Part shown: one piece after another, positions 1,062 to 58,868 of the stretch
How positions within the stretch are numbered: position 1 is the first letter of the stretch
Layout of the letters: each line of letters begins with the position of its first letter
From: Branchiostoma floridae
Taxonomy: Eukaryota; Chordata; Leptocardii; Amphioxiformes; Branchiostomatidae
Reading direction: 5' to 3'
Length of the DNA: 64,000 nucleotides
NCBI RefSeq assembly: GCF_000003815.2
Contig: NC_049988.1
Span: forward strand, 23,602,842 to 23,666,841
Made by a program: the position numbers and the translations under genes
The notes under the pieces: generated by a model
Seen by the model: only the letters and a program-made list of their open reading frames with translations
What the model was told of the DNA's origin: nothing
The model's database searches: none

Positions 1062-1256
1062 CTTGACCATGGCTTGTTCCATGGCCGAACGTCTCCATGG
1101 TGACGATGTTCTGTGGTTCCTGCTGACAGAACATCTGCAGCTGCTGGTAGGACAGGGCGGGCTGCAGACTCAGCACCAGCTCGGAGCCCCGCCCGAAGTA
1201 CGCCGGCTGGTCCCGCAGTACCGAGATGTCCACTTGGTCGTTACGCACCACGATGG
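1062..1256 (-). CDS. Adhesin exon 21: last visible exon
   Basis: It joins exon 20 in phase (TIVVRNDQVDISVLRDQPAY) and continues FGRGSELVLSLQPALSYQQL, ending with ETFGHGTSHGQ. The fold is not recognised. The acceptor is ATCCTCAG and the donor GTAGGT, so the gene continues beyond 1062 into the gap or out of the window. Confidence 0.78.
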
Positions 1257-4200
1257 CTGAGGATACAGAGGTTTCATTCGTAAGGCGAAGATTAGAAACA
1301 AAATTAGAGAGGACAAAGGTTTAATACAGATGGACTTCCATTTTTCTTGCCCCCCTAACACTGCATCCCCAAAATACCCCCCAAACTACCACCACCTCAC
1401 TTACCCTCCTTTCCTTCTTACTCTCCCATATCTATAGACATTCATTCATATATTCAATCAGCTACTCCAACAACAGAACCGTCTTATTTGTGAGAGGATA
1501 TTCGTAGGCTCCCAATGCCCGTCACTCATGCAGTCGCCGCCATTCCAACTCACACGTACTCGCTCACTCACTCACACAATCACTTGATCATTAGTTGGGA
1601 CATTAATTCATGAATTAATTCATCTACCCAAGCGACAGAAAAGCCGTACTTGTAAGAGATACCCTCAGTTCCGGACAAGCGGTGGTGACGTGCCGTTAGC
1701 GTGAGCCGAGTCCTTCACGGCGCTTACAACGACAACTTTTCTTACTAATACCAACTAATCCCAATAATAAAAAGCCCGTACTTGTAAGAGAGGGTATCCG
1801 TAGCCCCCAGTTCCCCACCAGTGGCGGTGACGTGTCGTTAGCGTGAGCAGAGTCCTTCACGGCGTTCAGCAGGCAGTACGGCGACCACTGGTCCTCCGGT
1901 AACGGCGCATGCGTCAACTCGTCAAACCCGCCACACGGAGCAACCGGGTTAACGCTGACAGTCCATTCCCCAACCTGGTGATGGTTGTTGTTAATTTGCA
2001 CATAAAAATAAGGAAATAAGTAACAGCATGGGAAAGGAAACATGCAGGAGAGACCAGAAACGCATTAAGTCTGCCCACAAAGTGAGATTATAAATACGAT
2101 CATAACAATTACTGTTGTGTGTTAATTACAACATACACATATGAGCAAAAGAAAAGAAGAAAAAAGCGGAAAACAAACTAAACGGTAATAGTACAATCAA
2201 ATAAAATCTAACAAAATACACCAAATGAAAGAGGAACGTTTGTGAATAATCAGTACAAATTAGAAGCACAAAGGGTAAATAGCAAAGTACAAGTGAACAA
2301 ACCTTAGGCTCTATCTGCGGGTACCCTACGTCAGCGATAGTGATGTCCAACACTCGCGGGCTCACCCAAGTGCCGGTAAAGGCGTCGGCATTGCTGGCCA
2401 CGGTTAGATTCGTGCTGAAAGTGAACATCTTATGCAGATCGTTTGCTGTGATCACAGACCCCGCTTGTCCAAAGGGTGGCATATTGGTGTCCTCGTTAAA
2501 AACAATGCGGAGAGAGTCCCCGGAAGAATATTTCGAGTCAGCCTGAATGTCTTTGTTTCCCGTTCCGGATATGGCCGTGACGTTGACCATATAAGGGCTT
2601 GGGGCGGTTATCATGACTCTCACGACGTTGCCGCTACACCGGGATGACTTGTACTGCGTGTTCTTGTCGCAGACCTGGATGTAGAAACTGTCGTAACCGC
2701 TCTCGTTCTGTCTCGGTGTGAAGGTTATGGCGGGTACGGCTGAAGACGTGTCTACTGCTGCGGTGCCTTTAGCAGGTTGGGAGGTTATGGCTAGTGTTGT
2801 CGCGTTGAGGTCGGTTGTGTCTATCATTTGGTAGAAGGTCAAGTTCATTCCGTTGTTTAGGAGTCCCTGCGCTTGTACGTCATCGGGGTCATGTACGGAC
2901 ATATCCGCTGTGGTGTACGCGTCATTTAGGAGGGTGTCTATGGGGTTTATGGTCACTACTTCATACCTGCTGGTGACGATGTGGAATGCTGACACATCCG
3001 GGGCATCGTTCGTGTTCATGACGTATATCGTTACCGTGGCAACCGAACAGGCGATGTGGGTGCCCGTGACGTCATACTCGTGACCTTGGTTCATTTCCAG
3101 CTGTCTCTGGCAGCTGGGAATCCCCGATACATACCCTCCAGTCAGCCTGGCCTCCCGTTGGTCGCACGGGTCGCAGACGGCGTAGGCAAAGCTGTCGTCA
3201 CCCACGTATCCAGGCAACGGTTTGTATTGCACCAATCCCGCGCTGCTGATGGCCTCCAGCTCCCCGCCTCTCTCTGACGTCACTTCCGTTTGGTAGGCAC
3301 CGGAAATGGGGTCCACCAGCCGAAGAGTTAAGGATGAAAGCTCGCTGGTCTCCAAGTCGCTGTAATGATCGCCGACGTTTATGACACTCGTGACGTCTTC
3401 GGACGCGTAGACGTCGAAGGGGTTGACGACCGGCGGGTCGTTGACCTCTAGGATGGTGACGATGATCATACCGTCCAAGTTACATAGTCCGGAGGAGTCG
3501 CAGGCCTGTGGAGGGATTCCATGTAGAAAAAGGTGTTAATGAATTAATATATTATCATTGTGTTCTACTCTGTGGGTGTCTTGCCCGAAAGACATCAGCC
3601 GAGGTCACATTTCCAAACCGGGGCCCGATCGGGCTGTTTGTGAAATGAGAAAAGAAAATATATACGTAAAAATACACACAAATAATGGCCAAGAATATTC
3701 TCTTGACGTCTTGTGTAGTTTGGTATATTCTATTCCCGAAAGCTGCCCGGTCAGATCCCAGCTTGGGAATATGACGCTAGCCTGGCTACACGTTATAAAA
3801 GTGGGTAACTGCATTCGTCAACAAACATTATTGGAGATCTAGATAAAACAAACAAAATTTCCGTAGACCCCACCAGGTAGTGTATGAGGTCCTTAGAGAG
3901 GAGGGTACTCTAAAGCATGTAGATGACATGGGATGATAAGAGTGTAGAACCCACCTGGTAGTGTATGAGGTCCTTCCCGCTCCTGTCCGTCCCGGCCGCG
4001 ATGTGCACCAGGCCGGTCCGGTTATCGTACCGCGCCGTGAGAAGGCTCGGGGACGGCTCGGTCAGGCTCACCGAGTCCACCGTGCCGTTAGCATCCTCCG
4101 TATCGGTCAGCACGGCGCCCAGGTGTAACGTGTAGTTAGTCTCTTCGTACATGTCTATGTACTGGGGCGGGGCGACAGGGGCGTCGTTCACCGAGATCAC

Positions 4201-7200
4201 TGAGATCTGGATCTGCGCCTAAAATAGAATACAATAGATACATAAATTCCACGCACTGCACTACGTGAGTGAAGTTACTGGGGGATCGTTCAGTACATGA
4301 CCGAATGAACACTCCTTGGCCGGCTACACCTCTTTACCAGCTTATATCACCGTAGGATCTGCTTGTGTTAAAAAATGCACCTTCCGAAAAAACAGTTGAA
4401 AACATACATGTAGAAGTTTGAATTGAGAACATATTGACATCAATATTTGTCATGCTGCTGTCTGTGAAGTCGTTCATCTTTTAATCACAACTTTCTCTAT
4501 TGCTGATTGTACAATCAGAATTTTCTTTAGAAATATCAAGTCATGTTGTATACTCTTAGGAGTATCTGGCTTAACAAGAAAGTTCACTTGTTCCTTACCT
4601 CCGTGCAGAGCTGCATCGCGTCCCTGTCGCACACGCGGATGTCGAACGTAACGTCATCAGGGTTGGTGCTGTAGAAGTGAGCGGGCGGCGTGTACGTCAG
4701 GTCGCCGGCGTCATCGTACGTCAGCAGCCCCAGTGAGACGTTCCGCGTCACGTCAACGTCAGACGCGTCGATGACGTCTTCTGCGTCAGAGATGTTCAAC
4801 CCGCCGGGTAACCTTATAAGGAGCGGGGTGTCCTCCTCTGTGTAGACAGTCGTAGAACCGACTCGCGGGGGGTCGTTTTCAGAGGAGACCTGGGGATACA
4901 TTTACCTATTTATTCAATGTATTCACAATATGTTCATTATAAAACAACAAAGCGCTTATGATACCAAATTGCACATGAAATAGCAATGTAAGAACAGTAT
5001 CAAAGTGATAACCAGAAAGGTGACATACAAATCATGAAAATACATTCACATCTTTTAGACTTATCGTGTTCCGATGTATGCAACTCAAACGCTCCCTGTA
5101 GTTCCAAAGACAATGCTAGGGGCAAAACGTCTTTTCGACCAAAAGGGCAATCTACAAACCAATCAAAGAATGTACAGAGCAGAAGATAACAGATTTCTTC
5201 TGCAGTACTATAGGAAGCCGCTGGGAGCCCATAGTTCTTACTCGGCCCTTTTTGGCCAACCCTTACCAACATGCCAAATATCATGAAGATACATCCATTG
5301 CTTCTCGAGTTCTGGTATTCACCAACAGGTAGAGATAACTTCTTAACGAAGGTAATAAAGTGAATTAACATAATAACATGTCACCCACCTGGATATTTAT
5401 GACTCCCTGTGCGCACTCTCCTTCACTGTCACACGCATAGAACACAACACGGTCCTCCCCCACATAATCCACGTCAGGGGAGTAAGTTATATGGGTGGAA
5501 ACCGTGTAGAGAGTGTTGAACGGGTTGTCTGCATCTTCTATGAGGGTTTCTACCATCGCCGTGGTGTTGTGGACAGCTGCGCCATGCGTTGTGTCGTTTG
5601 TGATGATGGCAAATGGCGTGCGCTGTTCCACATCTGATACAACCACTCCTACAGTAATGGGAACGTCCTCATTTGTTTGTATAGCGTTAGCCTGATCCTG
5701 TCCGCTGGTTACAGTAAGTGTTGGTGGGTCGTTCACTGCAGCTACTGTTATAGTGATGGTGTTTTCTATACAGGCGCCTTCGCTGTCACAGAAGCGTACT
5801 CCGATTTGCTCCTCGCCGTAATAGTTAGCAGCTGGCGTGAAGTTCATCACCCTAAAGTCTGCTGAGAACTCTGTGTTACCAGTGGTTGGGTAACTGGTCA
5901 CTGCGACGCTTGGATAGCTCGAATCTTCGCTCGTGTCGTCTTCAACGTCTTGGACGAACGTCTTCAGATTTGTAGACACGGGCGTGTCTTCTTGGGTGGC
6001 GATGATCAAAGGTAAGACCGGTTCTGGTGGATCGTTTACTGAGATGACGTCGATTGTTAGGGTGTATGTTTCGGTACAGGCGTGCTCTGAGTCGCAAACA
6101 CGGTAGGATAGATCGTATTGCCCGAAGTCGTGTAAGACAGGGGTGTAGTGGAGATCGCCTTCGCTGGTAACAGTCAAGTCGCCGCTGGTTGGGTAAGACA
6201 TCACGCTAACCGAAGACGTTGTCAAGTTTTCTTCGGGGTCGTAGAAGAGGCTGAAGGCGGTGATCGTCAGGTCGTTGTCTTCGAGAGTCGTGAAGGAGGT
6301 CGTGAGAGTGTCGCTAACCGGTCGTGGTGGGTCGTTCACACGTACGACTGTTATGAGAGAGTTGATGAGGGAGCTGGTTTCGCCTTGGTCGTCTGTTACG
6401 ATGATGTTGATCATGCGCTCGCCTTCGGTAGGGTTATCGTGTGCAGTACAGTATCTGGCCACTAGGAGGAGCTCCTTGGCTTGTACCGGAGTGAACGCAC
6501 CGCGAAGCTGTATTGATGAGTGCACGGAGTCTGCTGTACAAAGCGTTGAGTTATACACCAGAATCTGGCTGTACTGTGTCTGGTCAAATAGCTCACTGTC
6601 AGACAAGAACGACAAATCGAAGAAAACGCCTTCGAAACCCTCTTCTGTAACGTTAGTAACGTTGATGAAAACCTCCGAAAGAAACGTACTGTCTTCGTCG
6701 GAGACAGTTACGTTGGAGTCAACAATTGGAGACGGGAGAAAATCTTCGATAAACACCCCAGTATGTGTAGAACTCCCGTTGGTGAGGACAATAGAAGGTG
6801 GATCATTCACCGAGACAATGCTGACTGTGATGTTCATAGCGATGCTTTCTGTTATCCCATCGCTAGAAGTAAAGGCGAGAACTCTATCTACAGTGGCGGG
6901 TTCGTCTTTAGTGTTCTGATAGGTCACAGTTTGTAACGTGGTCTGATACTCCTCCACGCTTGCTACGCCAGAGATGTGGAGAATGCCTGAGGTCGCGTTG
7001 AAGACGGAAAACAGAGCTTCTGGGGTTGACACGTTCAGAATCTCCCATCCTTGGTCCATCAGGTTGGTGATAGCTACAGAGGCTGACGCGAGGATCGTAC
7101 TGTCAACATCTGATACTGTTACACCTGGCGAAACTGGCACAGGTGAGCCCTCTTCTGTAAAGGAGACGTCAGTGGATGCCGAAGACAACGTTGGCGCGTC

Positions 7201-10200
7201 GTTTTGCGTCTCGAAGATGATGTAAGCTGTGCCTACATCAGATTGAAGGTTTCCGTCAGACACGGTGAACTCCACAACGCGCTGTTGCGGGTCCGGGTCG
7301 CCGTGTGTGTTGGAATAAGACACTGTTCTAAGCACAGCGGCATAGTTTTCTACAGTATCCTCACCAGAAATATAGACTAAAGATTGATTTGCGTTTACGT
7401 ACGTAGCCATCAGCGATGTACCCAAAGTGTCCACTGTAATCGTTTCATACCCATAGTCAGGGTTGTTTACCAGCGTTACGTTAGCGTACGCCAATAGGCT
7501 GTTGTCGTTGTCTGTTAGACTCAAACTGTCAGCGACGGTCATGTCGCCACTTCCTTCCGTGTACACGGCGATGACGTCAGATCCGGCGGTGACGTCACCG
7601 TTGAGGTCGATGACCGGAGGGTCGTTGACCAGGCTGATGTTGATGGTGAGGTGGGCGAGAGAACTGTTGTGCAGTCCGTCCGATGCGTACATGTACACGT
7701 GTCTGGTTGTGGGTTTGGGTTCTTCAGCGGCGTTTGCATAGGTGAGTGTCTCCAAGGCGGATTGAAACATACTTAAAGAGACTGGCCCACTAAGACGCAA
7801 GGTAGCGTCGTCTGGTTGATACGAAGACGTGATACCTTCTGTAGACGTCACGGATAATGATTCTGACGCCCCATCGTAGGCAGGCTCGATCCAAACCACT
7901 ACAAACTCCATTGGGAAGTCACCACTGTCGCAGTCAGTAAGTGAGACATTCCGTCCGATGGGGGTTGGTAAGTCCTGCCCTTCTGTGAATACAAACACAC
8001 CGCTTGCTTCTAACACTGGAGCACAGTCGTTTATGACTTCCACATCGACACTCGCGACGACAACGTTACTCTGCAGTCCTTCCGTGTCGGTGACGTAGTA
8101 GGTGAGGGTTCTGGAGCCTGGTTGTGGTTCCGAGCCGTTGTGTTTGTACGTTACGGTACGTAGAACATCTTGGTAGGCTTGCACACTTGCTTGACCTGTT
8201 ATAGTGAGTGTACCGCTCGGAGAATCAAAGTCAGACGACATAGAAGTGTTGCTGGTATCGACTGCTAGTGTCTCCAAGTCTGGCGACAAGGACTGGACAG
8301 TCACGACTGCTTCAGCCATGAAGAAGTACTCATTGTTGTCGGCGTCAGACAGGGTGAGATTCTCAGGATCCACCACGAAGACTTCATCACCGTCTTCGGT
8401 GAAAGTGAAGTTGAAGGAGCTGACGGTAAGAACTGGCGCGTTGTCGCCAAGGAGTTGGACGGAGATACTGAAGTCTTCACAAGTCGTGTTGTGTCCATCG
8501 TCTGCACAGATCCGGACCTCCCGAGTGAAGTTGTCAGGTTCAGGTTCATTATTGTAGTACATAACGGACCGAAGCAGAGTTACATAGGACGTGATACTGA
8601 CTGCGGATTGGTTGAAGGGAGCTTGCAGTGTCATTTCACTTGTTCCGTTAAAGGCTATGTGTTCTACGGTGGCTCCTCCTATGAAAGCAACGCTGCTACT
8701 GTCACTTATGGTCAAGTTTTCGACACTCGTTCCGTTGAGAAGAAACCCTTCGTCACCTGTAGAGTTCTGCAAGGAGATGGTCATTTTCTTGAGATCTACT
8801 CCGTCTCTGTCTAAGACGTTAAAGCTGTCCGGAAGCAAGGAGATGGGATCCCCGTCCTCTACGAAGTCTAACGAATATTCTGAAGAAAGTGTGAGCTCTG
8901 GAGGGTCGTTGACGGACAGAACGTCTATGGTAGCGTTGACGGCTTCCGCGCTAAACTCACAGGTGTACACGTTGGAGCAAACGGTGGTGTCGACCCCGAA
9001 CTGAGCGACCATGCCGGCCGTTGTGCCCGTGTTGTCCCATGCTTTGATGGACACGTACGGGCGGTCTCTGGGATCGCGTGGAGAACCCTGCGCGTCTATC
9101 TCCGTGTTAAAATCCGCTTCTGGAAGAAACCGGATTCTGCAGCTCGCCGAGAGGAGGGTCGCCTTTTCCGGCAACGGGTCGGGAGGGACGACGAAGCCGT
9201 AATACATTCCGCCAATCATGTCTTGCCACGTGGCGTTGTCGCATTCGCAGCACGACTGCCACGCCCCGTATCGGGTGTCCGCACCCACCACAGCGACCCC
9301 CACGTCACTGCCCACGTCACTGTCTACGTAGATGTCCTCGACTAGTGTCAACACAGTTGTTCCGTTGTTGTCAACGTCTTGTACATCTTCTGCGATAGAT
9401 TCTAACTTGGTGACGTTGGTCAAAACTGGCGCGTCATTGGTTACCACGATGGTCACGTGGGCGCTCGCAGTTTCGCTGAAGTCATTACCATCGAACACAG
9501 TGACGCTGACCGTCCGACTGAGCAGGTTTGGGTTGGTGTAAGAGTTTGCGTAGGAGAGCGTGCTGAGCACAGATCTGAAATCTTCCAGGGGAGCGGAATC
9601 AGCGATAGTATCGTTAGGAGCGATCGTCATCTGGAACGGGCACACGGATATAATGTTTTTCGTGAGGTTTGTTCCGTCTAGATTGACTGTCACCTCTTCA
9701 ATTGAAGATGACGACTCCGAGCAGTTGTTTAAAGCTTCGCCATCAATACTCACTGTGGCGCGAACAAGATTATTGTTGTCTACATCGGTAAGGCTATACC
9801 CGTCTCCGACAAGAGTGACAGGGCTGCCGTGTTCTGAGAAAAACACTTCTACATCGCTGCTGGCGAACTGTAGCTCCGGTGGGTCGTTTACGGCAGTGAC
9901 TTGGATCGTGACGTTGATGAGTTCCGAGCCGAACTCGTTCTGATCGCTGTCGGCGTACCCCGTGACTTCAACGCCGTAGCTGGAGGAGGATGCCAGTCCG
10001 GTCTCCGTGTTGTCCCAGCCCAGGATGGTAACGTAAGGCCTGGGCGCCATGTTTTCTGCGTTCACGTTTGGTTGCGGTAGAAACCTTACGCGGCAAGTCG
10101 ATTTCAGTAAGGTCGCACTGGCTAGAGTAGGGAGTGGAGGAACCACGTAACCAAGGTGATACCCGCCAACGAAATCCAACCAATCGTACGGCTGGACACT

Positions 10201-16200: not shown

Positions 16201-19200
16201 TAACGTTGGCGTCGACGACCAATCGCCATTCTCCGTTCACTGCTTTTCCCGCCAAAGTTGAGAGTGGCGTGGCTGGCTTCAGGACGCTTGCCAGGTCGTT
16301 GCCGTTCGCACAGCTGTCGGTAGGCGGCGTGCCGCTATCGTGGAAGACGAAGTAGGCGACTGAACTAAAGTTACAGCCTGCAGTTTCCTCCATAAGTACT
16401 ACTGCGGTTCCGTCCGGATGGTAAAGTATGAGGGACGGAGTGACGTCAGAGTCGTTTTCGGCAGTTACGACCATTTGTACCGCCAAAGACACTTCCCTCA
16501 CACGGCCTCCTTGTTCTAGCAGCATCTCATTCTGTATCGGCGTTGCTGATTGGTCAAACGACGCTGCCAGAGGAGGAAGTAAACCATCCAGCGCCACCGT
16601 ACTATCCGAGTCCGGGTGTATGACCAGCGCCCATCGCACGAGTCGACCATCGCCGCTTTCAGAGACCAGATCTGTGACGTGGAGAGTCCAGTCCCCGCTA
16701 GGATCCGTCCCGACAAACTTGGAAAAGTCTCCGTCAGGTGTGAATGACCCTCGCGACTCGTACCGGCAAACTCCGGAGAGGCTGGGCAGCTCCCCGTCCG
16801 TAGAGTCGATGTCAGCATACCCTGCGGTACCGATGAACACCGCAGGGGACATGTGGTATTGTGAGCAAGCATACCCGCCTGGACGAAGGGTAAGAGTCTC
16901 GGTTACCCCTTCGTGTTCTAACTCCAGCTTCAAGTCCCCGATCCACGAGTGTTTGATGTCCACGATAACAACGACTTGTCCTACAGTTTGGTTGGTCTGA
17001 CCCACTGTTAAGGTATGGGACACCTTCTGTACGCCGTTCGCGCCAACGGGCGTGTTGAGTTCTGCAGATTCTACAAGGATCGGCAGGGGGAGCTGTTCTG
17101 TGTATGTGTACGCGACCGCTAGGGACTCGGCCGTCTCGTCGGTTGCGTTGTGGAGGGCGACGGTCATGCTTGATATCAACCCACCACTGTTCGTAGTAGA
17201 CGCTCCGCCGTTTGCAATGATATTTGCCGCACCTATCTCAGTGTCAAACGTTACCGGACACGATCCACTCCCCGAGACGCCCACCGAGACGCTTGGGGGA
17301 GAACCTTCGGGGGCGACGGCGATGTCCACCCGATGAAACTCGCAGCTGTTATCGGTGCACACCCGAACGGTGACCGAGCGTATCCCCTCCGTCGGACGAT
17401 CAGCGCTGTTGGTGTAGCTGATGCCGTTCAGAACGGTCTCGTACGTTGTACTTGTTGCCGCGCCGGTCACATAGACCATTGCGTTGTCAGAATAGTAAGA
17501 AACGCTTACTGATGAAGCAGATGTGGAGGAATATGTGAGTCTTTCTTGTGCGGTGTCTAAGACATACATTAGACTGACTGTCATAGACTGTACAGAAGAG
17601 GATGTTGTTATACTGCATCCTGTGGTAGCTAGAGAGGTGGTCTGTGCAGAGCTGTCTGTTAGGTTGAGAGTGGTGTTGACTGCGGACAACGTGAGCTGAA
17701 AAATAAGCATATTCTAGGTTAAAGATTAAAACGAATAGGAATCGTTCTTTTAGTCTTCGTTTAATCACGATAAACCCAAAATGATTAAGCCTTTTATGAG
17801 GTCATGAGGGAAGAGGTAGGCGTTGGGCAATCTATAGCAAAAATACAGATTAACTGGTTAATGTGCTAAATTTCTATTAAAAGTATGTTTAGAATGCATC
17901 GATGCAAAAAGCTCTTTCACATAGTTCACTGCGCATATTGACATACTACCCAGAATTCATGTCGCCTGCACATGCACATGCAGTCAAAGAGAATACTCGT
18001 GAATATTATCTGGGAATAGTTGGAATTCGAAACAGACAAACAAAACACACCTGGCTGAGTGTTCCAGACGAGACGACCACCTGTAGACATTGCGGGACGG
18101 ACATGAGTAAGTCGCTATCCACCGCCTCTAGACACACCACGTGACTGCCTACGTCATCAGCTCCGGGAGTCCACTGCAGCAGACCACTCCGGGAGTTCTC
18201 AGCTGTAAAAGAAGAAACATTCACTTTTCACCATATGATTGTCTATCTGTATCTGTATCTGTATAGCCGGTATACATACTGTTCTCCGGCGTAACACACC
18301 AGCTTCTGTGGTTTAGTTTACCATATGATTACTTTGGCTCACCCCACATTTCCAAACCGAGACTCGGTCGGACTGTTTTTAGGATTTATACGTAAATATA
18401 TACAAAAATTATGTCTACGACTATTCTCTTTACGTCTTATGTAGTTTGGTGTCTTTCAGTTTGATGTATGATAATACTTCTCGCTCCCGAAAGCTGCCCA
18501 ACCGGGTCTTGGTTTGGAAATGTGCCGTACAACTTACCTGTAACAGAGTCCACTGCCGAAGTTTCAATCAGACTCCACCCATCCGGCAGACTCCCCGCTG
18601 TACCGCGGATACTCAGACTGTTCCCGCTGTCCATGTCCGTCACGGTGACGACATGAGAGAACACCTGACCGACGCTCAGGTAGCGCACTGTGCCGGGTAC
18701 GGCGTCATACGGCTGTACGGCGGGCGGGTGGTAGGCTGGGGCGCTGTCGTGGAGGTGCAGGACCAGCTCTTGCATCGCCTAAGTAGATATACATGATAAT
18801 TATATACATGATAATTAGCAAAAGTATCATATGCTTTTTCATAGAACTATACTTGTAGAGTGGAAGTCATTTTACAAATGTCCCTGGAAAAAATAGTAAA
18901 ACTTACTTAACATTGGTAAAAATTGGGCAAATATGGACACTTAGTTTGACAGATGAGTTAGCTGTCCGGGAAGTATGGTGTGTGACCAGGTAACTTCTCT
19001 GGCATATGATGTGTCTATATAATATGTGTCCAATTTCTATTATTTTTTAGGTGAAACGTGGAACCTGGTAAAGGCTAAGAATTCCATACGGACCTAAATA
19101 TATACGCACTTGTGAACCAACAAACAATATTAATAACTTTGTACATCTTTTAAAAGACATCTGGAGCCTGATAGAGTTTAAGTCTTCTATACGGACCTCA

Positions 19201-22200
19201 TACAGACTTGACTAAATACAAACGTGGAACCTTGATTAAGCTTATATATATATATATATATATATATAAGAGATGTACCCGTGTTTCTTTGAAGTGTGCT
19301 TGAGTTGCGGCTCAATTCGAACATGCATACAACGAATAGTGAAAGTCCTACGCACTAAACCATTGCTTGGTGCAGCGAGAGCCGAAAATATGGACGGCGA
19401 CGTACCTTGACTCCCGTGACAGCGTCCTGTACGACCACCAGCGCGGACCAGAGCCCGCTCTGCAGCCCGTCGGCGCCCCACGCCACCCTGCCCGCCGCCG
19501 GGTCCAGCTGCAGCCCGGGGGGCGGACCGGCCTGGCCAGAGCCGTAGTCGGAGGGAGACGCCAGGCTGAAAACCACTGGGGTACCTAAAGAGCACATAAA
19601 CGGTATTTAAACATAAGCCATCTACATCAGACCTTTACAACCATCCCTTGAGACGGAGGCTAGGGCGCCATAGATTTTCTGCAGCTAAGGATTCACTTTG
19701 TCAATGTTACAACTCGATAAGAGTATGGCTATGTATGTATGTGTATATACAATCTTTATTGACACGACAAAAGTACAGCGACTTTCGTAAGGTCTACATG
19801 TATAACAACTACTTACAGTACAACTAAACACATATATATGGATATCTATAGGTATGGATACATCAACATAAAGGGTCTAGCATGTCATTTACACTATTGG
19901 TTCTACGGTATAAACAATCGTGGATATATTTGCCTACTTGTACACAATGTGGATTATCGCCTCCCAGAATATATGTAATGTGCATTGGACAGGCATTCAA
20001 GTTGGATGCGATCAGAGGAGTGTGCTTAAAGTAGAATAGGATGGGTTCCAGGCTACTCCCAATCCAGCGAAATAAAATAAAGCGCCTAGCTTACTTGGGG
20101 ATTAGTCGGGAGAAAATTCGGGGTGCGATGTAGTATACGGGCTTAACAGTGTACGTGCTTTGCTGAACATTTTACCAATGGGCAAAAGGTAACGTCCCTT
20201 ACCTGACGCAGTCGTCGCAGGTATGTAGAGCTCGGAGGTATGTTGTTTGTACCAGTGTACGACAGGGAACGTCGCCAGGTGTGGTCCCGAACCCACCGAG
20301 AAGTCCACCTTCGTCTGCAGGGTCATGCTGGGATCCGGTAAAGTTAATAATTAAGTGGTTATGATTTACTGTCTCCAGTTTGTTCATTCAGCCATCCCAT
20401 CCGTTCATTCACTCCATCCGTCCATTATTTAAATCACATTTACTAACCATCCATCCTTCCATTTACCTTACCTTGCCACAAGTCATTCATTCATTTAGTA
20501 ATATTCACACATTATTCCATTCCTTCATGTAGTTATCTACCCATGTCTATTTGCATGTATCAATGATATTAAATATGGACACACGCATAGATCAGATTGC
20601 GCATAGATATACATGTAGATATATATAGAGACAAAAAATGTTAGTCTTACGTTTATAAGTTGTTGGCTTTCGACTATACAAGGAACATCCTATGAAAAAC
20701 GTAAAAAAACACCATCACTACTCACGTGGTGCCTCCGTTGTTATGCAAGGCGTTGCTACGGCAACACTGCGACAACGAGACTTCCCATGATGCAGCGGAG
20801 GATGACCCGAAGTCGTGCGTCACTTCCGCTGACGTCAGGATGTACCCTTCACTGGACACCTCGACAACCTGGTTGGAACACACGTTCGGAAGTCAACAAA
20901 TATCGAGAAATGAAGATAAGTTGAATCGAAGGACTGGACTGTCGTTGCAGTGTCATCTATTTTGTTTACAATCATTAACGTCGCAACGAAAGAACCATCT
21001 TTGAGTAGATACGGGGGGCGTCACAAACTGACTGGCACAGTTGCGCCGTTGAGACGGTATCCGGTATCCATCGTTAAAAATCACGTGTGAGTGAATTATT
21101 TCTATCTTGTAAAGGCGAGAGTTGTACAAACAAAACAGATCCAAAAATCCAGACTTTTTGCCCTCAACACACAAAACAATATGTTATATGGAGGCAAACA
21201 TGGATTGGTCCACGTTTAGTGTTCCATCTACAGGGAAATTCATTTCACAATCATCATAATCACCGTAACGTCCAAGGTGTTGGTCCACTGGCTGCCATCG
21301 TTGAAGTTCAGGGTGGCCGGCACACTGATGACGTCACCGGAAGTGACGTCGGGCCGGAGTGACGTGTGGTAAGACATGCTGATGTGGAAGACCGCCACGC
21401 TCCGGCCGAATGTGACGTCACGGGTCCAGCTGATGGCGCCATGACGTAGATACTGGTCTGGATTGGTAAACCATACCATTTATGGGAATTAGCAGTCATG
21501 TGACCATGATGCATTTCAGTGCGGTCATGATGGTGGATTAAATAAGCATGCGAAATTATGGTGGAAATCTTGTATTCTATACAACAAAAATGCGGTGACT
21601 GTCCATGCCAGTATTCTGAAAAAAACAAAAAATCAGAAGATCCCCCGTTGATGTTCGAACGAACTAGAGTTATCATCATAAAATACACCAGAGTCCTTTT
21701 TACTACACATGGATTTAACCAACACTTGGACTTTGAAAAGCAGTGTTTAGTTACATGTATGTGACAGTTGTTTATATTTAACATCGTATACATAACCACT
21801 TGCTGCGAAGCTGGTATGTTACACTGTATGTCACACTAATACCATTCCCTGAAGCGTAAGAAATACCAGGTCCCTTACTTGGTGCACACCTGCCGATATT
21901 GTTTATGAAAACTCAGCAAAACTGTAAGATTGTTTTAAGACACGCCAGCAGCAACACTTATGACATTCTCGACCCTGAGATTGGTACACGTTGTGTAATA
22001 TTCCTCACGAGGTCTGACGGGGGATCAGGTTCGGTCCGTTAATACCGAGTCTAATCAATCAACCTCCTGCGACTGTCGGGACAAAAACAACTCACCGAAG
22101 TAGGGGGTTCAGAATAGACTCTACCAGGCTCTGTGTATCAATGGTCAAATAGTAGCTATTCGACAAATCCACGGAGCCTGATAGAGGCAAGGTTAAGACG

Positions 22201-24105
22201 TAGGCCTAGGGATGTTACTTCGTCTTGTATACCCTCTAAAAACCCCTGCTGGGGTGTCGCTGAGGGGGGTTGCAGTTGCTATAACATGAGCAAATAAACC
22301 GCTAGGGGGTTCGAATTCTATCAATTTCAAGGTCTCATCACGATTTACCCACATAACAAATATCAGTACAATCCATCAAGGCCTTGTAAGTTATGTTGTC
22401 CATCCACCAACATACAGAACTACACACACAAACACTACCGAAAACGTAGTACTACTCTTCTTGCCGAAGGTTATTCTTTCAGAAAATTTCATATGAAAAC
22501 AGGGAAAAAATAGAAAGACAACCTGCTACCAAATTTCGCACCAAATTTCACGTCATGTCACCTTAATTAAAAAGTGCGATCTCTGGAATTCAACAAGAAA
22601 TGGATATTTTTGGCAATGTGGTCCTACTAATTAACATATTGACATTAATCTTAATATTGACATTCAAATTCCAAAGGTGAAATGTATGTTGCCCGCGGGC
22701 TTTAAAAGTTTGAAACTGTGTTTTTAATACCGAATCAAGTCAATTAACCATCTGTAACGATGAAGAGGAAAAAACAAAGTGGGGGGTTCCGTTCTATCAG
22801 TAATAACGTTACAATCACAACAAGGATAGCAAACAACTGCGACAAAACGATACAAAAGACAACAGCGCTCCAGAATGTATCCCGCTCGCCTTAAGATAAA
22901 AGGAAATTGATCTTCTTTCTTCCCTCGGCTAAAATTATCCTTGCGTATCTATTTTTAGCACTGTAATCTATGGGATTAGGATACCGAAATCAAGGTTAAA
23001 CGCTTTGGGGGTGTTTTGATAAAGAGAATAACAAACAAGATGTGAATTTCATTCAGAAAATGATACACAGTGAGAAAATTCCATTGAACACAAGAACCTC
23101 TACATCACTGAGCAACTGAAAAAAGTGCTCCGAAGTATCCGTTAGTCTATGTTGATTTGATTACATTCTCTGAATCATGGAAACCCAAATACTGGAGCGA
23201 GCGTGCAAATGAAAACTTTGGCCAAACAAAAGTAGTCTTCATTATTGAGATATAAGTGGTCAGGAAGTTTGAACAACCACAGAGTATGGTGTACCGTGTA
23301 CCGAACAATAGATTATTCAATTTTGTTCTTCTTTTTTTCTTATTTGACCTTGGAATTACCGCTGGAATTCTATGGCATTCGTATGTTTTTCGATTTATAT
23401 ATTTTTTAATGTACGGCATATATTTGCGCATTTTACAACTGCGTTGTACGATATAGTGTGTCTGAAAACCTTTCCTTTTTGTAAACGGCGGAAAACTGAT
23501 GCGCGCGCGGATGTCATCCATATAATAAAATGAAAGTGGCGTACGCGTTAGCTAGTGGATGCTATCTGAAACTCTGAAACGCCTGACTGTGTTCATAATC
23601 TATCCGAAGGTCTGATTTCTCGCTGCTGTATTATTCAAATGATTCAGTATTGAAATAAGAGTTTATCAATGTAGAAAGTACACAACTCACCATAATCGTT
23701 GTCCTGTACCACTATATCCAGTGAAGCAGCAAGTGTAGCAGCATTGCCTCCCTCCTGGTACCAAACCTCCACGGGGTTCGTCTCCGTCCCCACCGAGGGC
23801 TCCACCACCCCGTCCTCGGGCGCTGCGAGCTCCACCCGCCAAGGAACATCCCAGTCCGCCCCGGTGAAGTCCACCTCCGCCGGTGACGCGATTATCCTCG
23901 TGGTGTTCGTCACCAGGAACGTGATTTTTGCCGTTGAACTTGGCGCCGCAGACAGCTGGACATCGTAGAACACACTTTCTCCCTCCAGTAGGGTGTCTGG
24001 ATTTGGGTAGACGCTGCTTTTGGTGAGGACCACCACTTGTGCAGCGACGTCGTAAGGAAAAAGACCCACGAAACAGCAAAGCAATATCCGTGTAGTCCAC
24101 CACAT
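1062..24105 (-). CDS. Giant modular secreted adhesin gene, 21 exons, 3' end missing
   Basis: I do not recognise a named gene. Coding exons in transcript order are 24105-23691, 21457-21264, 20868-20726, 20327-20203, 19584-19406, 18778-18538, 18202-18051, 17695-15779, 15387-15220, 14764-14530, 13873-13757, 12437-12270, 11968-11899, 11670-11465, 11004-10784, 10473-5389, 4889-4599, 4218-3955, 3505-2303, 1974-1782 and 1256-1062. All have AG/GT borders, and codon phase agrees at all 20 junctions, giving about 3,927 codons without a stop. The product starts with a signal peptide and carries Calx-beta-like, Ig-like, P-domain and about 18 cadherin-like modules ending in VNDPP, VNDAP or TNDAP. Such modules bind calcium and build long extracellular adhesins; this is family knowledge. 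Many NxS/T sequons fit secretion. No membrane anchor is seen, but the C-terminus is missing. Exon edges come from motif reading, not transcripts. Confidence 0.85.
1480..1730 (-). repeat. Decayed partial copies of adhesin exon 20
   Basis: The stretch 1637-1727 repeats the donor-side half of exon 20 (CGTACTTGTAAGAGA and GAGTCCTTCACGGCG are shared), and 1482-1540 is an older copy (TTTGTGAGAGGATATTCGTAG). Both lie in the intron downstream of the real exon and have no intact frame. Confidence 0.65.
1782..1974 (-). CDS. Adhesin exon 20: end of 'GDSL..VF' module
   Basis: It encodes VGEWTVSVNPVAPCGGFDEL, DQWSPYCLLNAVKDSAHAND and PPLVGNWGLRIPSLT. The final G.WG is the typical end of the module begun in exon 19. 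The acceptor is ATCACCAG and the donor GTACGG, phase 0 to 1. Two decayed partial copies lie just downstream (see the repeat at 1480-1730). Confidence 0.78.
2303..3505 (-). CDS. Adhesin exon 19 (1,203 bp): two repeats and 'GDSLRIVF' module
   Basis: This is 401 codons in phase 0. It starts ACDSSGLCNLDGMIIVTILE and VNDPPVVNPFDVYASEDVTS, includes YAVCDPCDQREARLTGGYVS, and has a second repeat after VMNTNDAPDVSAFHIV. The last part has YSSGDSLRIVFNEDTNMPPF, MFTFSTNLT and FTGTWVSPRVLDITIADVG. This is the 'GD...I.F...TN.P ... F.GTW.....L.I.I' module that I know from prokaryotic and algal repeat proteins. The donor is GTTTGT. Confidence 0.85.
3605..3774. mobile_element. MITE family B, copy 1
   Basis: An inverted-repeat element of about 170 bp. 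The left end is TCACATTTCCAAACCGGG and the right end is the complement of CGTCATATTCCCAAGCTGGG. The middle contains CTATTC/TATTCTC, GACGTCTTGTGTAGTTTGG and CCCGAAAGCTGCCC, shared with copies at 18345-18524 and 27995-28151. It lies in the intron between exons 18 and 19. A superfamily cannot be assigned. Confidence 0.75.
3866..3905 (-). repeat. Partial copy of the adhesin exon 18 donor end
   Basis: The stretch GGTAGTGTATGAGGTCCTT occurs at about 3874-3892 and again at 3957-3975, the end of exon 18. The copy keeps the donor region (CCACCAGG against CCACCTGG) and lies in the downstream intron. Confidence 0.6.
3955..4218 (-). CDS. Adhesin exon 18: type B repeat (VNDAP)
   Basis: This is 88 codons in phase 0. 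It begins AQIQISVISVNDAPVAPPQY, continues TNYTLHLGAVLTDTEDANG and ends AAGTDRSGKDLIHYQ. It splices to exon 19 (ACDSSGLCN), completing the Y.ACDS.G.C phrase. The acceptor is TTTTAG and the donor GTGGGT. A partial copy of its donor end lies at 3868-3900. Confidence 0.85.
4599..4889 (-). CDS. Adhesin exon 17: type B repeat (ENDPP)
   Basis: This is 97 codons in phase 0, starting VSSENDPPRVGSTTVYTEED, then TPLLIRLPGGLNISDAEDV and ending FDIRVCDRDAMQLCTE. It is one complete tandem-95-like repeat with the CD paired-cysteine ending. The acceptor is ATCCCCAG and the donor GTAAGG. Confidence 0.85.
5389..10473 (-). CDS. Adhesin exon 16: giant 5,085-bp exon with 12 cadherin-like modules
   Basis: It is 1,695 codons in a single frame, phase 0 to 0. 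Twelve module ends are readable: PSNDSP, AVNDPP, VTNDAP, SVNDPP, LGDNAP, INDCAP, LVNDPP, TQNDAP, SVNDPP, RVNDPP, SVNDPP and AVNDPP. Three module types mix. Type A has FTEDG...PV, D.D and YQ..LRTV.Y.N. Type B has EDN....F..DPE, YTP...FG and YRVCDSE. Type C has DAGVAVV..D...G.WQ, CR(V/I)RFLP and WDNT. Type C occurs twice near the exon start. The acceptor is TTGCTAG and the donor GTGGGT. Ordinary codon use and intact splice sites argue against contamination. Confidence 0.92.
10784..11004 (-). CDS. Adhesin exon 15: 'WEYSTDNGTTW ... RFRPEPDFSG ... RAWD' module
   Basis: It encodes GADSSNGLWEYSTDNGTTW, SGSSAVLLGEDGDGGRYRLR, FRPEPDFSGTAFLYYRAWDF and TTGTAGNTG. This phrase set is common in bacterial tandem-repeat adhesins, which is known to me from memory. 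The acceptor is TTCCACAG and the donor GTACGG. The end joins exon 16 in phase 0 (NTG|VSVTYTSP). Confidence 0.82.
11075..11140 (-). repeat. Partial copy of the adhesin exon 15 acceptor end
   Basis: The stretch CCATTATCCGTGCTCTCAAA followed by GTTACAGCTGTCAGCGCCTA matches the first part of exon 15 at about 10959-11006 (TTATCCGTGCT, AGCTGTCAGCGCCT). It lies in the upstream intron and its frame is broken. Confidence 0.6.
11465..11670 (-). CDS. Adhesin exon 14: SNDAP repeat end and next module start
   Basis: It encodes SEEHVTVTLTVQSSNDAPTV, then IDEDVTDPAGDAITVLLSNC and QQNIGIAVTG. The glycine codon of GIAVTG is split with exon 15, which continues ADSSNGLWEYS. The acceptor is TATCACAG and the donor GTTAGT. 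Confidence 0.8.
11899..11968 (-). CDS. Adhesin exon 13 (70 bp)
   Basis: This is a small exon encoding GSTSSLNNGDFVNATYTDNT plus GPF, linking the AWD phrase of exon 12 to the next beta-strand in exon 14. The acceptor is ATCTAG and the donor GTACGG. Phase 1 in and phase 2 out agree with both neighbours. The call rests on phase and splice sites as well as the weak domain context. Confidence 0.68.
12270..12437 (-). CDS. Adhesin exon 12: 'LRFIPDPNFSG ... AWD' half-module
   Basis: It encodes EIADGVRQPDGTVFRNSTLS, then NFLRFIPDPNFSGESTISF and VAWDLS. It continues exon 11: the RF.P...F.G.....AWD phrase closes the module. The acceptor is TTACAG|AGATAG and the donor GTGAGG. The upstream intron holds at least seven decayed copies of the first part of this exon (see the repeat at 12470-13440). 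Confidence 0.82.
12470..13440 (-). repeat. Array of decayed copies of the adhesin exon 12 start
   Basis: The core ACAGCGCCGAC(A/G)GCGTGCT of exon 12 (near 12371) recurs at about 12485, 12598, 12708, 12902, 13004, 13138 and 13380. The first copies repeat every about 113 bases. They keep the acceptor (TTACAG) plus about 26 codons (IADGxRQPDGTVYRNSTLSA) and end CTGCAG|GTTAAC. The blocks around 12690-12830 and 13120-13260 are also similar to each other, so the array grew in more than one step. Later copies have lost the frame. Confidence 0.8.
13590..13640 (-). repeat. Partial copy of the adhesin exon 11 donor end
   Basis: The stretch TCTACCTGTATAAGCCCCAG then GCCAGGTAGTCCCACTGCCC matches the donor half of exon 11 at 13752-13800. 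It lies in the downstream intron, 160 bases away, and is cut before the exon start. Confidence 0.65.
13757..13873 (-). CDS. Adhesin exon 11: 'GIAIxGADxxNGxW' half-module
   Basis: It encodes GFDSIISDNDAGATQGIAII, then GADNTNGQWDYLAWPGAYT. This is the first half of the 'D.D.G...GIAV.GAD..NG.W.Y' module that recurs in exons 14-15 and twice in exon 16. The acceptor is TTTCCAG and the donor GTAGGG. The true frame has no ATG. A longer ORF in another frame here is a shadow. Confidence 0.78.
13985..14105. repeat. CA-rich microsatellite
   Basis: An imperfect (CA)n tract in the intron between exons 10 and 11. The ORFs that cross it on both strands are low-complexity artefacts. Confidence 0.9.
14530..14764 (-). 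CDS. Adhesin exon 10: end of one repeat, VNDAP, start of the next
   Basis: It encodes VLLTMTYNNAAEEPSSSQR, then TVTVSVTRVNDAPHFNTNPL and TQEDANKFTQVPITVLQFIG. Two overlapping donors lie 6 bases apart (GTATAG after 14530, GTAATA after 14524). Both keep phase 1 and differ by two residues (FIG or FIGIG). The acceptor is TACCCTCAG. Confidence 0.78.
15220..15387 (-). CDS. Adhesin exon 9: cadherin-like repeat fragment
   Basis: This is 56 codons in phase 0. It encodes ADGDLEVLSVQNITRVEHVT and QLNISGLSSNDEYLQ. The L.ISG..S...YL phrase is the conserved middle of the cadherin-like repeat, whose next strand (VLLTMTYNNAAEEP) is in exon 10. The acceptor is TTGTAG and the donor GTGACA. It has no internal ATG and was found only by translation. 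Confidence 0.75.
15490..15600. repeat. Dispersed repeat with GTTAGACATCCAGGTAAT
   Basis: The phrase TCGATGAAGGTTAGACATCC, followed by GTTACTCAA and an inverted CTGGAT/ATCCAG pair, recurs at 25484-25580. Both look like copies of one short palindromic element. This copy lies in the intron between exons 8 and 9. Confidence 0.6.
15779..17695 (-). CDS. Adhesin exon 8 (1,917 bp): cadherin-like repeats with two P domains
   Basis: It encodes 639 residues. The first repeat contains TSTTYETVLNGISYTNSADR. A second repeat begins with SMTVALHNATDETAESLAV and is interrupted by two domains. P domain 1 (about 17035-16613) has VSHTLTVGQTNQTVGQVVVI, DIKHSWIGDLKLELEHEG and SGDWTLHVTDLVSESGDGRL. P domain 2 (about 16534-16151) has SLILYHPDGTAVVLM and VNGEWRLVVDANVTVD. 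The repeat then resumes (NQLTVTGTDTAERYAEVLNA). The P or Homo-B domain is a beta-barrel that stabilises subtilisin-like convertases and also occurs alone in bacterial secreted proteins. No catalytic protease domain is visible. The acceptor is TTTTTCAG and the donor GTGAGT. Confidence 0.85.
18051..18202 (-). CDS. Adhesin exon 7: WTPxxxDVGxHxVC repeat end
   Basis: It encodes AENSRSGLLQWTPGADDVGS, then HVVCLEAVDSDLLMSVPQCL. This is the last part of a repeat of the 'L.WTP...D.G.H.VC..A.DS' type found in many metazoan surface proteins. The acceptor is TTTACAG and the donor GTGTGT. The phase is 1 to 0. Confidence 0.78.
18240..18300 (-). mobile_element. LINE 3' tail remnant (CR1-like)
   Basis: On the minus strand the sequence reads CGCCGGAGAACAG, then TATACCGGCTATACAGATAC with repeats of ATACAG. 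The same tail occurs on the plus strand at 52970-53010, right after a LINE C-terminal remnant. CR1-type LINEs end in short microsatellite tails of this kind. Confidence 0.5.
18345..18524. mobile_element. MITE family B, copy 2
   Basis: Ends are CACATTTCCAAACCGAG and its complement TTGGTTTGGAAATGTG, with the same interior as 3605-3774 (CTATTCTCTTTACGTCTTAT, CCCGAAAGCTGCCC). It lies about 13 bases inside the intron after adhesin exon 6. Confidence 0.8.
18538..18778 (-). CDS. Adhesin exon 6: extracellular repeat with DMDSG motif
   Basis: It encodes AMQELVLHLHDSAPAYHPP, then YLSVGQVFSHVVTVTDMDSG and LSIRGTAGSLPDGWSL. The VGQ.....V.V.D.D.G...S pattern is that of a bacterial-type Ig or cadherin-like sandwich repeat, with D-x-D-x-G as a likely calcium site. 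The donor is GTAAGT. A MITE (18345-18524) lies only about 13 bases from this donor. Confidence 0.8.
18882..19230. mobile_element. MITE family A, diverged copy
   Basis: It shares GGACACTTAG-type and GAGTTAGCTGTCCGGGAAGT phrases, GTCCAATTTCTAT, and the end TATATACGCACTTGTGAACC with the copies at 24491-24795 and 29222-29515. A second terminal fragment (ATCTGGAGCCTGATAGAG to AAACGTGGAACC) follows to 19230. It lies in the intron between exons 5 and 6. Confidence 0.65.
19241..19268. repeat. (TA)n microsatellite
   Basis: A run of alternating TA in the intron upstream of exon 6. Confidence 0.95.
19406..19584 (-). CDS. Adhesin exon 5: Ig-like repeat (PPGLxLDPxxG)
   Basis: It encodes GTPVVFSLASPSDYGS, PPPGLQLDPAAGRVAWGADG and ALVVVQDAVTGVK. 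The PPGL.LDP..G.V.W pattern followed by a V.V.D strand is typical of putative Ig-like (He_PIG type) extracellular repeats. The acceptor is CTTTAG and the donor GTACGT. It ends in phase 0. It is GC-rich compared with the surrounding introns. Confidence 0.8.
20203..20327 (-). CDS. Adhesin exon 4: 'CCR..NN' module, end
   Basis: It encodes TMTLQTKVDFSVGSG, then LATFPVVHWYKQHTSELYIP and ATTASG. This corresponds to the '..P.V.....FTIPATDPDG' part of the module. The donor is GTAAGG and the acceptor ATCCCAG. The phase (2 to 1) fits exons 3 and 5. Confidence 0.75.
20726..20868 (-). CDS. Adhesin exon 3: 'CCR..NN' module, middle part
   Basis: It encodes VVEVSSEGYILTSAEVTHDF, then WEVSLSQCCRSNALHNNGG. 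The paired cysteines followed by R and an NN pair are the core of the module begun in exon 2. The donor is GTGAGT. It starts in phase 0 and ends in phase 2, matching both neighbours. It was found by translating through the splice sites. Confidence 0.75.
21264..21457 (-). CDS. Adhesin exon 2: start of the 'CCR..NN' extracellular module
   Basis: The reading frame continues exactly from exon 1 (phase 1). It carries HGAISWTRDVTF near its start and GDVISVPATLNFNDGSQWTN near its end, closing on LDVTV. This matches the first part of a module I know from bacterial and protist surface proteins (ITW..F ... GDVI...TLNFGDG....TLDVTV). That resemblance is from memory. The acceptor is ATCCAG and the donor GTGATT, a weak site. 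Confidence 0.7.
21458..23690 (-). other. First intron of the adhesin gene, no exon seen
   Basis: This is 2.2 kb between exons 1 and 2. I see no conserved coding stretch. AGGGGGTTC...TCTA-type motifs at about 22091, 22294 and 22783 may be ends of a small dispersed element. The rest is AT-rich with nothing recognisable. The frame runs directly from exon 1 to exon 2, so no exon is required here. Confidence 0.6.
23691..24105 (-). CDS. Adhesin exon 1: signal peptide and Calx-beta-like segment
   Basis: The ATG at 24105 opens with a hydrophobic leader (MWWTTRILLCCFVGLFPY, cleavage likely after DVAA). An EGESVFYDVQLSAAPSS strand pattern, the phrase VDFTGADWDVPWRVEL and a closing VQDNDYG follow, resembling Calx-beta-related repeats (EGxSxxYxVxLxxxP ... 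FTxxNWxxPxxVxV). The donor is GTGAGT at 23690. A strong acceptor (TTTCTTTCCAG) at about 24155 implies a non-coding exon further upstream. A four-codon upstream ORF lies in the short leader before the start. Confidence 0.85.
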
Positions 24106-47893: not shown

Positions 47894-48258
47894 CTGACTA
47901 ACTGCAACTCCATAGAACTCTTGACAACGTTTGGGATTGAAGAAACTTGAAGTAAGTCTGAAAATGAGCTAAATAAAGGAGGAATTCAAACTCCCGCTCA
48001 AGTTGACTATTTCTGCAAGCAGCGCTTAGAACCTGAACGCATGTACACGATAGCCATTTGTAAAAAAAAAATACTCATGATAATAGTTCTTGTTTCCAGA
48101 ATTTTTATCTAAAATTTTACAAAAATGTATTATAATTTACCAATATGTAAAAAGGATGTGATTGTGTGTTTTGACCGTGCATTATATTTGTAAGGAGACT
48201 AGTGTTCCCGGTAATATTATTTGTTTGGATGCGGTGTTATGATCGCTACATCATCAAC
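47894..48258. promoter_or_regulatory. Shared head-to-head promoter region
   Basis: The Kelch gene starts at 48259 (plus). A possible first exon of the ankyrin gene ends with a GTAAGG donor at 47893 (minus). At most about 350 bases would separate the two transcription units. No TATA box or clear CpG island is visible, so only the geometry supports the call. Confidence 0.35.
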
Positions 48259-54339: not shown

Positions 54340-54439
54340 NNNNNNNNNNNNNNNNNNNNNNNNNNNNNNNNNNNNNNNNNNNNNNNNNNNNNNNNNNNNN
54401 NNNNNNNNNNNNNNNNNNNNNNNNNNNNNNNNNNNNNNN
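54340..54439. other. Assembly gap (100 N)
   Basis: A run of 100 N between the Kelch gene and the downstream region. Confidence 0.99.
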
Positions 54440-58013: not shown

Positions 58014-58868
58014 GCCACAGTAGAACCCGACTCAGGTATTGTGACTCACCCCAGAGCGTCCAGTCGATACCCGGCTAAGCGGATAAATGATTTGGATTTT
58101 GCCGATGATATTGCTCTATTAGAGTCATCGGGTCCAAGAGCACAAGAACAACTCACTAAAACTGCTACTGCAGCATCCGACTTAGGTCTTGTTGTTAGTG
58201 TCCTTAAGACGGAATACATGTGTTATAATGACAATCCAATTCCCCCACTTCTTGTGTATGACAAACCGATTAAGCATGTACAGGATTTTAAATACCTTGG
58301 CTCTATGATGGCCTCAACAAGTAGTGACCTTAAGAAGCGTAGAGCTTTAGCATGGGTAGCTTTCTGGGACTTAGAACATCTATGGAGAAGTAATAGTATC
58401 CCTATTGCTGTTAAAGTAAGACTGTTTAAGGCCTCGTGTGTTTCAGTACTTACTTATGGATGTGAATCCTGGGTTACTACTAAGGTGATGGAGTGCAGAA
58501 TTAACTCGTTTGCAACATCTTGTTACCGTGTCATGTTAAACATCAAGAGGCTTGACCGGGTGCCTAATTCTGTAATCTACAAACTGACCAACACAAAACC
58601 CTTGATTGAGCATGTAAGGTCAAGACAGTTGGACTACCTGGGTCACGTACTGCGAATGCCTGAGGACGAGCCCGCCTGTCTCTATTCGCTGTACTTACCA
58701 TCACATGGCAAACGCAGGCGAGGTCGCCAACCCATGTCCTACCTGCAGTACATACAGCAGCTGCTGGGGGACGAAAGCGGCCTACTTACACCGGGGCAGA
58801 TCAAAACCCTGGCTGCCGACAAGAAACAGTGGAGACTTGCAGTCGCCCGCCTCGCGGCCGACCGATAG
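58014..58868 (+). mobile_element. Non-LTR retrotransposon reverse transcriptase, C-terminal part
   Basis: One open frame from the gap to TAG at 58868. It contains the RT catalytic box (INDLDFADDIALLES), the KTE.M phrase, FKYLGSMM, SVLTYGCESWVTT and LDYLGHVLRMPEDEP, then GKRRRGRQP. These are the palm end and C-terminal region of LINE reverse transcriptases of the RTE/CR1 type. The clade is not fixed. The intact frame suggests fairly recent insertion. The upstream part is in the gap. Confidence 0.9.

Follow-up and report, generated by a model that had tools for sequence, protein, structure and literature searches.

Gene organization at the locus

The window (the whole 64,000-nt stretch of Branchiostoma floridae DNA that was analysed, C10:23602842-23666841) contains on its minus strand a giant gene whose exons run from 24105 down to 1062. 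The 21 exons are joined by 20 in-phase GT-AG junctions into a stop-free reading of 11,788 nt and 3,929 amino acids. The labels A, B, GDSL, CCR and Calx-like, used below for modules of the predicted protein, were coined in the present analysis; the basis of each feature is given in brackets.

23691-24105, minus strand: exon 1, predicted signal peptide and Calx-like module (chain; second copy with the same start and signal peptide)
21264-21457, minus strand: exon 2, corrected acceptor (second-copy comparison)
20726-20868, minus strand: exon 3, CCR..NN motif, region of the weak SIBA-E_N match (chain, Pfam)
20203-20327, minus strand: exon 4 (chain)
19406-19584, minus strand: exon 5 (chain)
18538-18778, minus strand: exon 6, He_PIG-like (21.7 bits, under the cut-off of 24)
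18051-18202, minus strand: exon 7, He_PIG-like (chain, Pfam)
15779-17695, minus strand: exon 8, 1917 nt, a partial A module, an A module interrupted by two tandem P-domains, and the start of A1 (Pfam, A model)
15220-15387, minus strand: exon 9, module A1 (chain, A model)
14524-14764, minus strand: exon 10, A1/B1 (chain)
13757-13873, minus strand: exon 11, B1 (chain)
12270-12437, minus strand: exon 12, B1, with a tandem array extending into its 5' part (chain)
11899-11968, minus strand: exon 13, B1 (chain)
11465-11670, minus strand: exon 14, B1/B2 (chain)
10784-11004, minus strand: exon 15, B2 with the WEYSTDNG motif (chain)
5389-10473, minus strand: exon 16, 5085 nt without an intron, end of B2, B3, A2, B4, A3-A8 and tandem-95/Big_9 repeats (Pfam, NCBIfam)
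4599-4889, minus strand: exon 17, one Big_9-like repeat (31.8 bits, cut-off 23.6)
3955-4218, minus strand: exon 18, one Cadherin_4-like repeat (30.3 bits, cut-off 25.1)
2303-3505, minus strand: exon 19, 1203 nt, two further repeats and the first GDSL.IVF..TN module (Pfam, NCBIfam)
1782-1974, minus strand: exon 20 (chain)
1062-1256, minus strand: exon 21, 195 nt, 194 in the second copy (chain)
921-1020, no strand: 100-N assembly gap ending the window copy (sequence)

The exon-chaining script, run on the minus strand, returned 22 exons over the same span, and a second copy of the gene, described below, was then used for correction: comparison with it ruled out the exon at 22177-22096 of the first automatic chain as spurious and shifted the start of exon 2 from 21429 to 21457. 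The longest open frame reaches 1,702 codons, and none exceeds 262 in a set of 20 order-1 Markov controls; the chain score of 1362 compares with a maximum of 31 in the same 20 controls and with 252 for the plus strand. The codon model behind the score was trained on three exons of the giant gene and makes the score circular in part; the open-frame length is free of this circularity. Since both values lie far above the controls, the chain is not due to chance. Its N-terminus, MWWTTRILLCC..., reads as a signal peptide by eye and by hydropathy rather than by a trained predictor, and the same start is found in the second copy. The gene is incomplete in the window, where the chain ends at gap 921-1020, ahead of the 3' exons for a membrane helix and tail.

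The neighbouring genes are animal-type genes, comprising a plus-strand BTB-Kelch gene (48184-52275), a stretch that also lies beside the second copy, and a partial Fuseless-family gene (minus strand, 56188-57129; PF15993, E 3.4e-59), adjoining an 876-base N run.

A second copy and the missing 3' end

Searching the genome (513.4 Mb, 431 contigs; only the best candidates scored) with 723 residues of exon 16 gave four matches, namely the window, a second copy 1.1 Mb off on the opposite strand (91% identical) and, within each of the two, a weaker internal repeat. With exon 8 as the query, only the window and the second copy matched among the best candidates scored. Exon lengths are identical in 19 of the 21 exons as built; exon 8 was built 9 nt longer in the second copy, where a donor is also present at the window's position and would bring the count to 20, and exon 21 differs by one base, so that the frames of the two copies differ just ahead of gap 921-1020. 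Splice sites and exon lengths are kept between the copies, and the introns have diverged and carry large indels. Over 3,661 codons, the copies differ at 448 synonymous and 260 non-synonymous sites (dS 0.19, dN 0.032, dN/dS 0.168), with dN/dS of at most 0.53 in all 12 segments of 300 codons and dS ranging from 0.02 to 0.28 across those segments. This conservation is strong evidence that the exons would be translated as predicted, yet not that they form one single transcript. As judged from these sequence comparisons, the chain is one real, constrained animal gene. The preliminary description had likewise read an animal gene in one long chain of 21 exons between 1062 and 24105 (about 11.8 kb, 3.9 thousand residues), with an N-terminal signal peptide and 20 junctions all in phase, and these claims stand, the signal peptide and the splice sites being found again in the second copy.

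Homology between the copies exceeds the giant gene. The window from about 1026 to 54303 is collinear in pieces with inverted C10:22438885-22496008, a block of about 53 kb in which the whole neighbourhood is doubled, the BTB-Kelch gene included, and which ends at 100-N gaps (921-1020 and 54340-54439). Because the block is bounded by such gaps on both sides, the two copies probably represent two haplotypes of the same locus, the second having been placed elsewhere in the assembly unmerged, and the giant gene probably occupies a single locus. The published account of the B. floridae assembly describes two "highly divergent haplotypes" of one animal that were first assembled apart and later merged (PMC7269912), and a lancelet pangenome report names high heterozygosity as a cause of overestimated duplication (PMC12373286). 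A true inverted segmental duplication, with the window copy as a 3'-truncated and perhaps decaying paralogue, would account for a dS of 0.19 accompanied by large intron indels, for the truncation and for the one-base difference in exon 21, and the uneven dS along the gene counts against simple alleles; set against the gaps at both ends of the block, the doubled neighbourhood and the divergent haplotypes of the published assembly, such a duplication is considered unlikely.

The second copy continues for eight more exons to a stop, for a total of 4,689 residues as built or 4,686 if exon 8 takes the window-type donor. Its strongest hydropathy peak (2.23, residues 4214-4232) marks a putative transmembrane helix at about 4212-4235, followed in rank by the signal peptide (1.93) and by a peak at residue 1144 inside an A module (1.83), so that the second copy has the signal peptide and one transmembrane helix of a type I protein, as assessed by hydropathy and by eye, not by a trained predictor. 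The tail of about 454 residues is basic at its start, lacks an NPxY motif and any other recognised adaptor motif, and lies in a C-terminal piece for which Pfam has no tail match at E 1. The second copy also carries 65 N-glycosylation sequons and an RGRR site at residue 3957, ahead of the last module. Since this copy supplies the missing 3' end, helix and tail, the giant protein is most likely a type I single-pass membrane protein of about 4,690 residues. The chain in the window would then be the extracellular part of a giant type I single-pass cell-surface protein, with the copies most likely being haplotypes, a combined reading held with reasonable confidence. The earlier description of a giant adhesin holds for the long chain; the window does not contain the whole gene, the anchor and tail lying beyond its gap. 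Haplotype placement in an assembly can in this way conceal a gene's membrane anchor.

The later exons of the second copy are absent from the 40 kb past gap 921-1020, a stretch with many N runs. A predicted continuation of the window copy past the gap resembles a seven-helix receptor and was judged by eye to be another gene. Two further candidates were discarded as artefacts: a 63-nt exon of the second copy at 22495014-22495076, and the run of the second-copy chain into a C-type lectin lying downstream.

Module architecture of the ectodomain

The ectodomain of about 4.2 thousand residues comprises about 28 modules by count: one Calx-like module, the CCR region, one He_PIG-like module, ten A modules (one partial, one split), four B modules, seven tandem repeats starting with ND[AP]P, two P-domains and two GDSL modules, the second of these in the second copy only. 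Big_9, Cadherin_4, Cadherin_5 and P_proprotein match above their Pfam cut-offs, and SIBA-E_N and He_PIG below theirs. In exon 16, the scores are 54.8 bits for Big_9 (cut-off 23.6), 54 for Cadherin_4 (25.1) and 31.9 for Cadherin_5 (26.5), and the tandem-95 model NF012211 of NCBIfam reaches 109.1 bits, past its curated cut-off of 90; exon 19 alone gives 46.6 bits with this model and exon 8 gives no match. The module of exon 1, which we take to be Calx-like, has no Pfam Calx-beta match. The two GDSL.IVF..TN modules, one in exon 19 of the window and the other in the 3' part of the second copy, are 26.7% identical (E 1.8e-7).

Modules A (about 135-155 residues, profile built from eight) and B (about 155-175 residues, from four) were scanned singly, and among the matches listed all 8 A modules and all 4 B modules stay below the Pfam cut-offs; for B, the table examined is that of the first member, and the remaining members list nothing at E 0.01. 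The A profile also finds a partial module at residues 508-599 and two module halves that flank the two tandem P-domains of exon 8 (616-697, E 0.0055, or 0.11 in the second copy; 990-1066, E 8e-8). Of 20 shuffled sequences, the profile lists none. One P-domain is matched by PF01483 at 44.8 bits (cut-off 21) and the second is backed by matches to bacterial P-domains. The P-domains are accordingly read as inserted within an A module, of which the first half is weak.

Among solved structures, exons 16 and 8 have no match at E 0.01, and the A and B profiles retrieve nothing convincing at E 1. Two structure predictions gave mean pLDDT values of 35.9 and 39.8, too poor for use, and since both models are unusable, the fold of the modules is only inferred.

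Relatives in bacteria

Among 294 Planctomycetota genomes, module A is matched in 29, module B in 12, exon 8 in 28 and the N-terminal part in 9, and the Calx-like part of exon 1 has weak matches in planctomycete giant frames. Module B is also matched in 8 of 288 Verrucomicrobiota genomes, and A and B modules are present in at least three bacterial phyla. Matching plasmid records, which include Azospirillum, Escherichia and Citrobacter, number 52 for the A-B-B-B segment and 8 for a 657-residue exon 16 query; the N-terminal piece gave 1 record and the C-terminal piece none. The 19 bacterial loci examined hold 22 frames with a match, and 5 of these carry A and B together, such joint giant frames occurring in Planctomycetota. 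No relative was found in the phage collection, the viral contigs gave no relative of B or of the last module of the second copy, and one A module had no match in 2 bacterial genomes. A survey of huge proteins reports that Big_9, Cadherin_4 and Cadherin_5 are frequent in bacterial giants, with Planctomycetota as the largest contributor (PMC11573180).

The earlier impression of bacterial-looking modules is upheld, since A, B and tandem-95 modules are all matched in bacterial giant frames. The amphioxus protein has these three kinds of module in common with bacterial giants of the tandem-95 or DUF4347 type (Planctomycetota, Verrucomicrobiota, Azospirillum, Variovorax), and differs from them in its introns, signal peptide, membrane helix and long inner tail; neither DUF4347 nor the haemolysin-type repeat is listed for it by Pfam.

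Residues 1070-1714 (A-B-B-B) align in one blastp stretch to the A-B-B-B of a 3,615-residue planctomycete frame (genome G115, locus L068) with 32% identity and 197 bits (E 2e-52, in a small sequence set). By identity, B1, B2 and B3 each pair best in register with that frame, by a margin of 1 to 3 points; alignment scores place the in-register pairing third of 6, make B2 the best fit to the first bacterial B, and put A1 only fifth of 8 A modules. The best tblastn piece for A-B-B-B lies one module out of register, and a tblastn search of 23 genomes from the same planctomycete order matched 7 of them, another genome giving longer single pieces. The in-register reading, in which all three B modules were best on the diagonal by identity, was dropped as contradicted by the alignment scores and the tblastn pieces. 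The A-B-B-B order is common to amphioxus and the bacterial frame, but without a module-for-module match.

Comparison with known receptor families

Calsyntenins are membrane-anchored type I receptors of animals. Two of the eight amphioxus A modules match the calsyntenin model PF19699 (CLSTN_C) at positions 152-218 and 156-218 (12.5 and 17.7 bits), and four of nine bacterial A modules, chosen from the best matches, do so at about 149-228 (12.4 to 22.4 bits, best E 6.7e-5), a fifth matching another part. The modules involved include A modules within 9438-5389 and those of bacterial loci L071 and L075. The model's cut-off of 27 bits is reached by no A module (best amphioxus 17.7, best bacterial 22.4), and PF19699 is unlisted for the C-terminal piece of the second copy. 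That amphioxus and bacterial A modules should point to one and the same calsyntenin stretch by chance seems unlikely, and the match is best treated as a lead and not as family membership, the giant protein differing from calsyntenins in having ten A modules plus B, tandem-95 and P-domains. The link makes it testable whether bacterial adhesins have a module in common with a family of animal receptors.

The Sib proteins of Dictyostelium are described as adhesion receptors of the membrane whose repeats are known elsewhere from bacteria (PMC9453864). SibA-E and the giant protein have in common bacterial-type repeats and the weak N-terminal match to SIBA-E_N (21.7 bits, under the cut-off of 28.1), which was obtained at 186-277 of a scanned N-terminal piece that still included residues of the spurious exon 22177-22096, the match lying outside these. 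The VWA domain, a Sib feature, is not listed by Pfam for the giant protein, nor does the tail carry the NPxY of Sib proteins. Classical cadherins and protocadherins resemble it in their long stack of cadherin-like repeats and type I anchor; its repeats match Cadherin_4, Cadherin_5 and Big_9 instead of PF00028, which is unlisted at E 0.01 in all 7 pieces scanned and at E 1 in the C-terminal piece. The domain content would place the giant protein in neither the Sib family nor the classical cadherins. With proprotein convertases it has the P-domain PF01483 in common, differing in that two P-domains stand in tandem inside an A module; the Pfam listing of exon 8 holds P_proprotein alone, without a subtilisin-type peptidase domain. 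A literature search found no description of the giant gene, which is weak evidence, and the preliminary description's proposal of an undescribed lineage of metazoan giant adhesins is not established.

Descent or transfer

Amphioxus modules are as close to bacterial ones as to one another: mean identity is 26.9% among amphioxus A modules and 27.8% between amphioxus and bacterial ones (best 40.0%), with 33.2% and 32.8% (best 48.9%) as the corresponding values for B. In trees of amphioxus and bacterial A and B modules, the amphioxus modules interleave with the bacterial ones with low supports, B3 and B4 alone grouping at 100, and AU tests do not reject a single amphioxus clade (p 0.363 for A, 0.215 for B). 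Interleaving was therefore rejected after the AU tests as proof of transfer. Eight introns interrupt the A-B-B-B part, and exons 8 and 16 are long stretches with no intron in them.

The reading that fares best, and that is judged somewhat probable, is an ancient and inherited eukaryotic surface protein, common to other animals or protists, whose bacterial likeness reflects very old mobile modules. It agrees with the animal-type introns and single-pass topology and with a divergence among modules that is near saturation, and the calsyntenin matches suggest that A-like modules may pre-exist in another animal receptor family. The weak SIBA-E_N match points the same way, given that Sib proteins carry bacterial-type repeats on a membrane anchor (PMC9453864). 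The matches to SIBA-E_N and CLSTN_C are, however, both under their cut-offs, and CLSTN_C is unlisted at E 1 for 6 of the 8 amphioxus A modules.

An A/B core that came from bacteria within a giant adhesin, was linked to a signal peptide, a membrane helix and a tail, and gained introns in places is improbable. The single-stretch alignment of A-B-B-B to the planctomycete frame, the equal likeness of amphioxus modules to bacterial ones and to each other, and the 5,085 nt of exon 16 without an intron would all fit such an event, but A-B-B-B lacks a module-for-module match, a single amphioxus clade survives the AU tests, the relatives are spread over several bacterial phyla, and eight introns lie within the stretch that aligns. 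The fuller scenario of an animal receptor rod descended from a bacterial giant adhesin, given introns, an anchor and a signalling tail, and held under strong purifying selection, is rated a shade lower still, its odds, small before, having been reduced further because the A-B-B-B order does not match module for module. The horizontally acquired core proposed in the preliminary description is thus not established, given the A and B modules in at least three phyla, the AU results and the weak calsyntenin match. The bacterial searches which that description had called for did yield relatives; the single-module trees that it also proposed are of low support and leave an amphioxus clade unrejected.

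Proposed function

The best reading of the protein's role is that of a long adhesion or recognition receptor. The modules would be beta-sandwiches stacked into a long rod that holds the N-terminal part outermost, away from the cell, where it may bind another cell, matrix or microbes. The basic, probably disordered tail may couple to the cytoskeleton or to signalling, and furin may cleave at the RGRR site that precedes the last module, which would give two chains. The gene, which is under constraint, is viewed as encoding a putative animal receptor whose giant ectodomain consists of modules known above all from bacterial adhesins. Its presence in other animals and protists would reveal an overlooked family of adhesion receptors; its absence there would point to a chordate that recruited bacterial surface architecture on a large scale.

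Minor features of the locus

A 113-bp tandem repeat at 12362-12669 (2.7 copies, 97% identity) spans the 5' part of exon 12, its splice acceptor and the preceding intron, and more worn copies extend by eye to about 13450; this intron measures 1,319 bp in the window and 522 bp in the second copy. The intron after exon 20 contains at 1680-1740 a slightly altered duplicate of the 3' part of that exon, recognised by eye. A frame at 58017-58865 resembles by eye the end of a retroelement polyprotein and has no Pfam match at E 0.001. Beside the second copy, a C-type-lectin-like exon (L011:1278-1664, by eye) lies about 4.8 kb downstream of the stop codon.
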